From Vicinamibacteria bacterium (GTDB taxonomy: Bacteria > Acidobacteriota > Vicinamibacteria > Fen-336), in contig JAMPXO010000004.1 of assembly GCA_023701125.1 (NCBI GenBank), forward strand, positions 1 to 64,000: 64,000 nucleotides of DNA, given 5' to 3'. Shown here piece after piece: positions 10,947 to 14,012 of the stretch (position 1 is its first letter; the number at the start of each line of letters is the position of its first letter). Under the pieces are notes generated by a model. That model saw only the letters and a list, made by a program, of their open reading frames with translations. It was not told the origin of the DNA and did not search any database. Both the position numbers and the translations under genes were made by a program.

Positions 10947-11495
10947 TTACGCGCGGGCCGGGGACAGCGCCCGGCGCAGGCTGGCCAGGCGGGACTTCAC
11001 GCTGCCGTCGTAGGTGCGGCCCTGCATGGTGAGGCGGACGCCGCCGAGCAGGCTCGGGTCGGTGGCCGTCTCGAGCTCCACGGCGTGGCCGGTGGCGGTG
11101 CGGATCGCCGTCGTCAGCGCGTCGCGCTGGCCGGCCTCGAGGGCGACGGCCGTCGTGGCCTGGGCGGTGATCACGCCGGCGGCCTCGGCCACCTGCTCGG
11201 CGAACGCCCGGGCGATGGCCGGCAGCAGCACCATCCGCCCGCGTTCGGCGAGCAGCTTCAGCAGGCGGCCGGCGGACTCCGCGGCGCCGGCGAAGACCGC
11301 GCCTGCCAGTCGGCCGCGGGTGTCGGGCCGGACCGCCGGATTGGTCAGCGCTTCACGCAGCTCGGTGTGGCTCGCAAACGCGGCCGCGGCCTGGTGCAGG
11401 TCGTCGCGCACCACACCACGCTGGGCCTCCGGGGCCACGTCGAACAGGGCACGGGCGTAGCGCCGCGCCGCCAGCATCTCCCCCTGGGCTGCCAT
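10947..11495 (-). CDS. atpH: ATP synthase F1 delta subunit
   Basis: A 182-residue delta (OSCP-like) subunit, the cap that ties F1 to the peripheral stalk. The N-terminal helical bundle begins with [11 protein letters not shown] and the C-terminal part has [27 protein letters not shown], the conserved GG[IV]-type segment followed by a DGS(V/I)xxxL motif. It is the first gene of the F1 cluster. The stalk b subunit that usually precedes delta is absent: the next gene upstream is selD. A promoter-like sequence lies about 150 nt upstream of the start. Confidence 0.96.
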
Positions 11496-11642
11496 GCGAC
11501 CTGTTCGTTCCCCTCGCCTGCTCGAACGTCAGTCCACTGGAGGGCGGGCGCAGCACCGGGCGTGGAGGCCGCGAGTGAGCGGGACACCGCGCGGGGCCCG
11601 CGGAGCAGGTACTGACGGACCCCTCAACCCAAAAAGCGTCGG

Positions 11643-11672
11643 AGCGTAACACGCGGCGGCGACGGACGTCAA
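11643..11672 (-). promoter_or_regulatory. Candidate sigma-70-type promoter of the F1 ATPase operon
   Basis: On the minus strand there is a TTGACG -35 (11667-11672), an 18-bp spacer and a TACGCT -10 (11643-11648), giving a start near 11636. It lies in the 215-nt selD-atpH gap (11496-11710), which holds no gene. The leader to the atpH ATG would be about 140 nt. The -35 is 5/6 and the -10 only 3/6 to consensus. Confidence 0.45.
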
Positions 11673-11710
11673 AGCTGCCGAAGGCCGTGGGCGCGGCCGC
11701 GCGGGCCCCT

Positions 11711-12745
11711 TCAGCGGACCCGGATCGGCCTGTCGGCGGCGGGCTCGACGCTGCCGATGACGCGCGCCTCCGGCAGCTGGGCGAGCATCTCGGCGACGGC
11801 GGCCGCAGGACAGGCGATGGCCAGGCCGCCGCTGGTCTGGGGGTCGAACAGCAGCGGCTCCCAGCGCGGGTCGAGCCCGGCCAGGTCCAGGAACGGACCG
11901 TAGTGGCGGCGGTTGGCCTTGAGGCCGCCCGGCTGATACGACGCGGCCAGCTCCAGCGCGTGCGGCAGCAGCGGCAGCGCCGCGGCGTCGAGGCTCAGGC
12001 TGACGCCGCTCTCGCGGGCCAGGCCGCGCAGGTGGCCGATCAGGCCGAAGCCGGTGATGTCGGTGGCGGCGCGAGCCCCCAGTTGCACGGCCACGTCGCC
12101 GGCCTGGCGGTTGAGCCGCGCCATCGACGCGGCGGCGGCCGTGGCGGCGGCCGCCGGGGCCGCTCCTGCCTTCAAGGCGGTGGCGATCACGCCGGTGCCG
12201 AGCGGCTTGGTCAGCACCAGCACGTCGCCGGGCCGGGCGCCGGCATTGGTCAACATCCGGGCCGGGTCGACGAGGCCCGTCACCGCATAGCCGAACTTGA
12301 TCTCCGGGTCGCGCACGCTGTGGCCGCCCAGCAGTGCGCAACCCGCCTCGGCCAGCTTGGAGGCCCCGCCGTCGACGATCGCGCGCGCCCACTCGAGCGG
12401 GAAGTCGCGGTCCGGGAAGGCGGCGATCGACAGCGCCGTCAGCGGTCGGCCACCCATCGCGTAGACGTCGGACAGCGCGTTGGCCGCGGCAATCGCGCCG
12501 AAGGCGAACGGGTCGTCGACGACCGGCGTGAAGAAGTCGACCGTCTGCACGAGTGCCGTGTGCTCGTCGAGGCGGAACACGCCCGCGTCGTCGCCGCTGC
12601 TCTGGTCGACGAGGACGCGGGGGTCGGGGTTGCGGATCAGGCCGCCCAGGACCTGGGCGAGCTCGGCCGGGCCGAGCTTGCTCGCTCAACCAGCGCTGGA
12701 GACGCGCTCGGTCAGGCGCCGGATCCGCTCGCGCTCGTCGCTCAT
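11711..12745 (-). CDS. selD: Selenophosphate synthetase SelD, itself a selenoprotein (in-frame UGA = Sec20)
   Basis: SelD uses ATP and selenide to make selenophosphate, the selenium donor for selenocysteine and selenouridine. Reading from ATG 12745 gives MSDERERIRRLTERVSSAG, then TGA (12686-12688), then ASKLGPAELAQVL, and continues without a stop to 11711 (344 residues if the TGA is read). The TGA sits exactly where E. coli SelD has catalytic Cys17: the lysine three residues later (Lys23) matches E. coli Lys20. Downstream family motifs are intact: SSGDDAGVF, FFTPVVDDPFAFG, GGHSVRDPEIKFG, TDITGFGLIGH, DPQTSGGL. A hairpin with a GUC loop lies 27-43 nt after the TGA. The start ATG overlaps the bactofilin stop by 4 nt. 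An unaware caller would begin at the GTG or ATG-like codon near 12580. A frameshifted or dead gene is unlikely given perfect conservation on both sides. Confidence 0.92.
12643..12678 (-). promoter_or_regulatory. Candidate bacterial SECIS element of selD (two adjacent perfect hairpins)
   Basis: Just 3' of the selD UGA the minus strand can form two hairpins back to back. The first (12660-12678) has an 8-bp perfect stem around a CCG loop. The second (12643-12659) has a 7-bp perfect stem CGCCCAG/CTGGGCG around a GTC loop, 34 nt after the UGA. The second resembles the SelB-binding apical part of the E. coli fdhF SECIS, which also presents a GGUC-type loop on a short stem. From known SECIS rules (apical loop about 16-37 nt from the UGA, G early in the loop), the second hairpin is the better candidate. 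No selA, selB or selC is in the window. Confidence 0.6.
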
Positions 12746-13128
12746 GCCTTGTGGCCTCCGCTGCCCGCGGTATCGCTGCGCGGGCCGGTGTCGCAGTCGC
12801 CCTGAAACAAGGCACCCTCCTCGATCACCAGCCGCGGCGAAGACAGCGTGCCGTGGACCCGCGAGCCGGCCAGCAACTCGATGCGCTGGCGGCCGTGGAT
12901 GTGGCCGGTGACCGTGCCGCGGATGGAGACGACGCCACAGTCGATGTCGGCCTCGACGTGGCCGGTCTCGCCGACGATCAGGGTGTTGTCGGAGACGATC
13001 CGGCCCTTGACGTGGCCGTCGACGCGGAAGGTGTCGCGGAATCGCAGCTCGCCCAGGAACTCGGTGCCCTGGTCCATGAACCCGTTCAACTCGTCGCCGA
13101 CGAGCCCCTTGAGCTGGCGCAGGACCAT
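12742..13128 (-). CDS. Bactofilin-family cytoskeletal protein
   Basis: A 128-residue protein with a bactofilin (DUF583) beta-helix core: repeated hydrophobic strands such as FLGELRFRDTFRVDGHVKGR, DNTLIVGETGHVEADIDCG, and VTGHIHGRQRIELLAGSRVHG. Bactofilins polymerise into filaments without nucleotides and organise cell poles, chromosome segregation or wall synthesis. The gene lies 5 nt after parB and overlaps selD by 4 nt, the same parA-parB-bactofilin order seen in some delta-proteobacterial genomes. That context points to a chromosome-positioning or pole role, as inference. Start ATG is 13128; the frame is open further upstream but that part belongs to parB. Confidence 0.93.
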   Translation of the reverse strand: MVLRQLKGLVGDELNGFMDQGTEFLGELRFRDTFRVDGHVKGRIVSDNTLIVGETGHVEADIDCGVVSIRGTVTGHIHGRQRIELLAGSRVHGTLSSPRLVIEEGALFQGDCDTGPRSDTAGSGGHKA

Positions 13129-13133
13129 CGGCC

Positions 13134-14012
13134 CTAGACCCCGCGCGCCAGGCGCACCAGCGCGTCGTACAGGCGCGACAATTCTGCCTCGCTCCCGAAT
13201 TGAATCTTGAGCAATCCCTTGCCGCCGCGCTGGCGCGCAATCTGGACGCGGGTGCCGAGCGCCGCCCGCAGCTTCTCTTCGGCGGCTCGCGTGTTGGCGT
13301 CGACCGACTTCTTGGTGACGGGACGCGGTGCGCGCAGGTGAGCGACGCGGGCCTCGATCTCGCGGACCGAGAGGCCCTTGCGGGCGGCCTCGCGGCCGAG
13401 CGCGACCTGGTCCTCGGCGGACTCGACGGCCAGCAGCGCGCGGCCATGCCCGGCCGACAGCCGCCCCTCCCCCACCAGGTCGCGCAGCTCGCGTGGCAGC
13501 CGCAGCAGGCGCAGGGTGTTGGCGACGGTGGCGCGGTCGCGCCCGACCTTCTGCGCGACCTGCTCCTGGGTCAGCCGCAGGTCGTCTTGCAGTCGTTGGT
13601 AGGCGACGGCCTCCTCGATCGGCGTCAGCTCCTCGCGCTGGATGTTCTCGACGATCGCCAGCTCCAGCAGGCGATCGTCGGGCACCTCGCGGACCGTGAC
13701 CGGAACGCGGCTGAGGCCCGCCCGCTGCGCAGCCCGCCACCGTCGCTCGCCCGCGATGATCTGGAAGCGGTCGCCGTGGGGCCGCACGACGATCGGCTGC
13801 ACGATGCCGCTTTCGCGAATCGAGTCGACCAGCTCCTGCAGCCGGGCCTCGCCCATCACGCTGCGCGGCTGCAGCGGGTTGGGCTCGAGACGGTCGACGG
13901 CGACTTCATGCGGCACCACGGGCCCGGCCACCGGAGGTGGCGGGGCCGCCGGCGCCGGCTCAGGCTCCGGCAGTAGCGCCGAGAGGCCCTTGCCCAGTGC
14001 CTTGCGCGTCAT
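13134..14012 (-). CDS. parB: Chromosome-partitioning protein ParB
   Basis: A 292-residue DNA-binding CTP switch protein that loads at parS and spreads along the DNA. The N-terminus RKALGKGLSALL is the usual ParA-stimulating segment. The ParB/Srx CTP-binding domain follows, with the motif GERRWRAAQRAG near residue 90. The helix-turn-helix has LTQEQVAQKVGRDRATVANT near 150, and the C-terminal dimerisation domain follows a linker. The start overlaps the end of parA by 53 nt, which is long for this genome, but MTRKALGKGL is clearly the family start. Two parS sites lie about 0.8 kb upstream. Confidence 0.98.
   Translation of the reverse strand: MTRKALGKGLSALLPEPEPAPAAPPPPVAGPVVPHEVAVDRLEPNPLQPRSVMGEARLQELVDSIRESGIVQPIVVRPHGDRFQIIAGERRWRAAQRAGLSRVPVTVREVPDDRLLELAIVENIQREELTPIEEAVAYQRLQDDLRLTQEQVAQKVGRDRATVANTLRLLRLPRELRDLVGEGRLSAGHGRALLAVESAEDQVALGREAARKGLSVREIEARVAHLRAPRPVTKKSVDANTRAAEEKLRAALGTRVQIARQRGGKGLLKIQFGSEAELSRLYDALVRLARGV

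Follow-up and report, generated by a model that had tools for sequence, protein, structure and literature searches.

The selD gene of a Vicinamibacteria bacterium almost certainly encodes a functional SelD (selenophosphate synthetase) that contains selenocysteine (Sec), in which the UGA at codon 20 would be decoded as Sec by means of SelB and an mRNA hairpin at positions 12659-12643. The gene lies in the window, the whole stretch of 64,000 nucleotides analysed here (Table 1). The gene, its Sec site, the conserved hairpin and the Sec machinery of the genome are evident from the nucleotide sequence.

Table 1. Positions of selD and of the other features described in the text (window numbering unless stated)
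Feature	Position	Strand	Description
atpH, ATP synthase delta subunit	10947..11495	(-)	Pfam PF00213, 142.6 bits
selD, selenide,water dikinase (selenophosphate synthetase)	11711..12745	(-)	344 aa, Sec predicted as residue 20
Predicted SECIS hairpin CGCCCAG-GUC-CUGGGCG	12643..12659	(-)	apical loop 33 nt after UGA; fits the bSECIS model
Second hairpin AGCUCGGC-CCG-GCCGAGCU	12660..12678	(-)	between UGA and SECIS hairpin; loop at +15
TGA predicted to be read as Sec	12686..12688	(-)	codon 20, at the position of E. coli SelD Cys17
Bactofilin gene	12742..13128	(-)	directly upstream of selD; Pfam PF04519, 95.4 bits; start approximate
fdhA, formate dehydrogenase alpha subunit (L128 / L140)	same genome, contig 28:10376-12262		one in-frame TGA

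The selD gene and its in-frame TGA codon

The selD frame on the minus strand runs from the ATG at 12745 to a terminal TGA at 11713-11711 and contains one internal TGA, at 12688-12686. The read-through product is similar over its full length to the curated SelD equivalog of NCBIfam (TIGR00476, 358.6 bits against a cutoff of 125), scores above the cutoff of PRK00943 (303 against 299), contains the AIRS and AIRS_C domains and resembles the SelD proteins of E. coli (3u0o, E=4e-66) and Aquifex (2yye). Alignment with E. coli SelD (3u0o) matches U20-A21-S22-K23 to Cys17-Gly18-Cys19-Lys20, and the essential Lys thus stands three residues after the catalytic Sec/Cys. The protein sequence is conserved on both sides of the TGA (RLTERVSSAG-U-ASKLGPAELAQ), and the coding frame is intact 3' of it. 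These results bear out the preliminary description, which had placed a single in-frame TGA at the catalytic Cys17 position, equated Lys23 with Lys20 of E. coli and read the part after the TGA as a normal SelD; its end of the frame at 11711 also stands, but of the two stop codons that it offered, TAG and TGA, only TGA is right. It had correctly noted Ser at the Cys19 position, where nearly all SelD relatives have Ser or Ala; since Aquifex SelD has the motif SSGCAAK at the equivalent site, the lack of a second Cys, with Ser or Ala there instead, is unremarkable. The selD of the window is confirmed by its sequence as a complete gene of the predicted Sec type, with TGA at the catalytic site.

The relatives of this gene were the 80 nearest matches from named genomes and the SelD matches of 17 genomes of the same order, which after removal of duplicates gave a tree of 92 distinct SelD genes, the one in the window included. 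In this set, which is biased to Sec forms because it was gathered as the nearest relatives of a Sec-type query and from the same order, the codon at the Sec site is TGA in 82 of the 92 genes and TGC or TGT in the other ten, with no other codon, and the in-frame UGA is therefore aligned with the conserved Cys of homologs. The nearest named genome, a Vicinamibacteria metagenome-assembled genome (MAG), has a SelD of 84% identity with a TGA as well. Since one codon is TGA in so many genes and Cys in all the rest, the TGA is not a product of chance or a sequencing artefact. Within a sample biased to Sec-type SelD, the predicted Sec form is the usual one among Vicinamibacteria and the nearest Acidobacteriota.

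The TGA stop of the bactofilin gene overlaps the selD ATG (ATGA), and atpH is the first gene of an ATP synthase cluster downstream of selD. The row parB-bactofilin-selD-atpH-atpA, at 10947-14012 in the window, is conserved across the order near parA and dnaA, where it was seen at ten loci. Many other Acidobacteriota have parB and atp genes near selD, mostly without a bactofilin match.

A predicted SECIS hairpin 33 nucleotides after the UGA

The bSECIS consensus model (PMC13188914) describes a loop of 3-9 nt with a G early in it, a spacing of 16-37 nt and a minimum free energy of -7.5 kcal/mol or lower. The hairpin at +33 has the loop GUC, a spacing of 33 nt (31 nt with the inner pairs counted as loop) and an energy of -11.2 kcal/mol (z -3.98). 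In 28 related sequences, 96.9% of the pairs of its stem are kept and three pairs show two-sided changes; when the structure is slid along the same sequences, the share of pairs kept falls to 22-45%. In one of the two-sided changes, a silent difference in an Ala codon (GCC/GCU) is coupled to a Gly/Ser difference (GGC/AGC), suggesting that the RNA is under selection. Of 83 Sec genes, 57 fit the strict model, while shuffling of synonymous codons gene by gene gives an expectation of 4.4 ± 1.9; none of the ten Cys genes fits. These counts are not independent trials because the SelD sequences are related. Many of the 26 Sec genes that the strict model misses keep a hairpin at +20 that falls outside the limits for loop, stem or energy. 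In the window sequence alone, a segment of 51 nt folded as a whole has an unexceptional energy (z -1.35 against shuffles); the mean synonymous-shuffle z of this segment, -1.56 in the Sec genes versus -0.26 in the Cys genes, is suggestive but not decisive, since the sequences are related. The argument for the predicted hairpin comes from comparison among relatives and not from the folding energy of the window.

A second hairpin lies between the UGA and the +33 hairpin, with its loop at +15. It is conceivable, but unlikely, that Sec is inserted in response to this +15 hairpin or to a combined structure, the +33 hairpin being a by-product of coding at high G+C. The +15 hairpin is the more stable of the two in the window (-13.2 versus -11.2 kcal/mol) and also covaries in part, with two-sided changes in two pairs, but its stem is less well kept (87.9% of pairs), and its spacing of 15 nt and the first two positions of its loop, which have no G, do not suit the SECIS model; the published rule for spacing and loop is satisfied by the +33 hairpin only. 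The GUC loop of the +33 hairpin resembles the GGUC loops of the organism's own fdhA and of E. coli fdhF, and the rarity with which codon-shuffled sequences fit the model argues against a by-product. With the +33 hairpin preferred as the SelB signal, the +15 hairpin, which is present mainly in genes of the +33 class, is probably a spacer or a lower helix.

Selenocysteine machinery and a second predicted selenoprotein

The genome assembly to which the window belongs (254 contigs, 95% complete) contains selA (516.1 bits), a complete selB (311.7 bits) and selC, the last as a tRNA-Sec (Rfam RF01852, 71.9 bits) to which ARAGORN assigns the anticodon TCA. The selB product has an EF-Tu-like GTPase domain, domain II, a SelB beta-barrel and winged-helix domains. 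In the window itself, the Rfam search returned no RNA family and ARAGORN no tRNA. The TGA of fdhA lies within CNRT-U-HAPSVVGL, the canonical Sec site of this enzyme, and a hairpin follows whose loop, GGUCU, stands 18 nt after the UGA; E. coli fdhF, read as a control, likewise has GGUCU at its hairpin tip. Together with the TGA-containing selD, this gene gives the genome at least two predicted selenoproteins by family searches. The window's genome yielded no second SelD above the cutoff, and the genomes of the order yielded no selenouridine synthase (ybbB/mnmH) above it.

The preliminary description had proposed that the organism decodes Sec and had named the absence of selA, selB and selC as evidence to the contrary; the presence of selA, selB and tRNA-Sec, with FdhA as a second candidate selenoprotein, settles at the level of gene content that the organism has the selenocysteine trait. 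It had also considered that TGC or TGT might have been misread as TGA, against which TGA is kept in close relatives and replaced there by Cys only, and a SECIS hairpin follows it. More generally, it is very improbable that selD is a pseudogene whose TGA really ends translation or arose from a sequencing error, or that translation starts downstream, for example at the GTG at 12580, to give a truncated SelD without the catalytic loop. An open frame of 289 aa from this GTG does exist, and automatic annotation without recoding would give the truncated 289-aa SelD here, but a protein so shortened would be without the catalytic residue and Lys23. The TGA recurs in dozens of independent genomes, both flanks are conserved as protein, including the sequence before it (RLTERVSSAG), the frame past it is intact and the genome has the full Sec machinery; a pseudogene or sequencing error was rejected on these grounds. 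Genome-wide reading of TGA as another amino acid (Trp, code 4; Gly, code 25), for which no support was found, is more improbable still and was rejected, since TGA is a normal terminator that ends atpD, parA, yidC and dnaA in the window, and selD, so that the code is otherwise standard, and relatives without TGA have Cys at this site in every case, never Trp or Gly.

Two registers of the selD hairpin and switches between Sec and Cys

Vicinamibacteria and their sister group have the +33 hairpin, as do gp4/Pyrinomonadaceae and one member of the Armatimonadota. In Terriglobia, Bryobacteria and several other phyla, the hairpin loop lies at +20 instead and mostly reads GGU or GGC; two-sided changes occur in this hairpin too. 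On the SelD tree, the SECIS register changes at least three times and the Sec/Cys label at least six times. Since the hairpin lies at +18 in fdhA and at +33 in selD and the genome has one SelB, this SelB would have to serve both. We somewhat favour the interpretation that the SECIS of selD has shifted by 13 nt (+33 versus +20) while the Sec codon stayed fixed, that one SelB serves fdhA at +18 and selD at +33, and that the hairpin has departed from the model in genes that changed from Sec to Cys. A narrow literature check found no earlier report of a register shift of the selD SECIS.

In one genome of the order (G004), a Cys SelD lies in the same parB, bactofilin, selD, atpH neighbourhood as in Sec-bearing relatives, and the +33 hairpin is gone; given the shared neighbourhood, an in-place change from Sec to Cys is the simplest reading. 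Two Cys SelD genes of Terriglobia (L041 and L044) do not fit the strict model but keep a +20 stem, which is possibly a SECIS remnant left after a recent change from Sec to Cys. SECIS remnants have been described in the literature (PMC1794560).

SelD exceeds the cutoff in 14 of the 17 genomes of the order, and among the matches listed, SelA is found in 12 and tRNA-Sec in ten. Among the same matches, three genomes are without SelD, SelA and tRNA-Sec, and five have a TGA-containing SelD, yet SelA, tRNA-Sec or both are missing. These gaps are tentatively attributed to fragmented or incomplete assemblies and to match lists of limited length; in G003, which has no SelA over the cutoff although it is 97% complete, fragmentation is perhaps the cause. 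G004 retains selA and tRNA-Sec beside its Cys SelD and a Cys formate dehydrogenase, and should therefore have another selenoprotein. Two genomes (G011 and G010) encode, in addition to the usual SelD, a Cys-type SelD fused to a NifS-like domain of the class-V aminotransferases, the domains having been checked in the former. NifS-SelD fusions are known and are reported to be rare (PMC4561486). Such a Cys copy could begin selenophosphate synthesis without Sec in these two genomes.

Comparison with known systems

A Sec-containing SelD is a classic selenoprotein, and so the present gene is known in kind. The statement of the preliminary description that such proteins exist in several phyla agrees with the literature (PMC4561486, PMC1794560): Sec-SelD/SPS2 makes up 19% of the SelD genes detected in bacteria in a reference set, with Sec always at this site (PMC4561486), and SelD ranks among the two most widespread selenoproteins of bacteria (PMC1794560). 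The present gene is like these bacterial Sec-SelD/SPS2 genes in enzyme, Sec site, Cys as the sole alternative, bSECIS downstream and Sec machinery, with no difference in kind. E. coli SelD (3u0o) is alike in family and domains, and its Lys20 is kept as Lys23, whereas its Cys17 and Cys19 are replaced by the predicted Sec20 and by Ser22. The SelD of Aquifex aeolicus (2yye, 2zod), moderately similar in sequence and from another phylum, has SSGCAAK where the present protein has SSAG-U-ASK, neither having Cys at the Cys19 position. The crystallised Aquifex chain has Cys; the wild-type protein carries Sec. Like the SECIS of E. coli fdhF, the selD hairpin has a small apical loop that opens with G and has U or G next, 16-37 nt from the UGA (PMC13188914), but its loop is at +33 and not near +20, and an extra hairpin stands in between. 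Sec-SelD is already known and common; what is less ordinary here is the position of the SECIS (+33 versus +20).

Implications for Sec insertion and selenophosphate synthesis

From the gene, its relatives and the machinery we infer both Sec insertion and the enzyme activity of the predicted Sec-SelD. SelB together with Sec-tRNA-Sec would bind the mRNA hairpin, and codon 20, a UGA, would be decoded as Sec. Sec20 would then replace the catalytic Cys in the mobile selenium-binding N-terminal loop, beside the essential Lys23, and SelD would make selenophosphate from selenide and ATP. SelA would use this selenophosphate to charge tRNA-Sec, and since SelA depends on the product of SelD, SelD would help to make the very residue that it needs. 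In this genome, selenophosphate would serve at least SelD and one Sec-containing formate dehydrogenase. One Sec site with two hairpin registers and several switches between Sec and Cys would be a natural experiment on how far from the UGA SelB binds.
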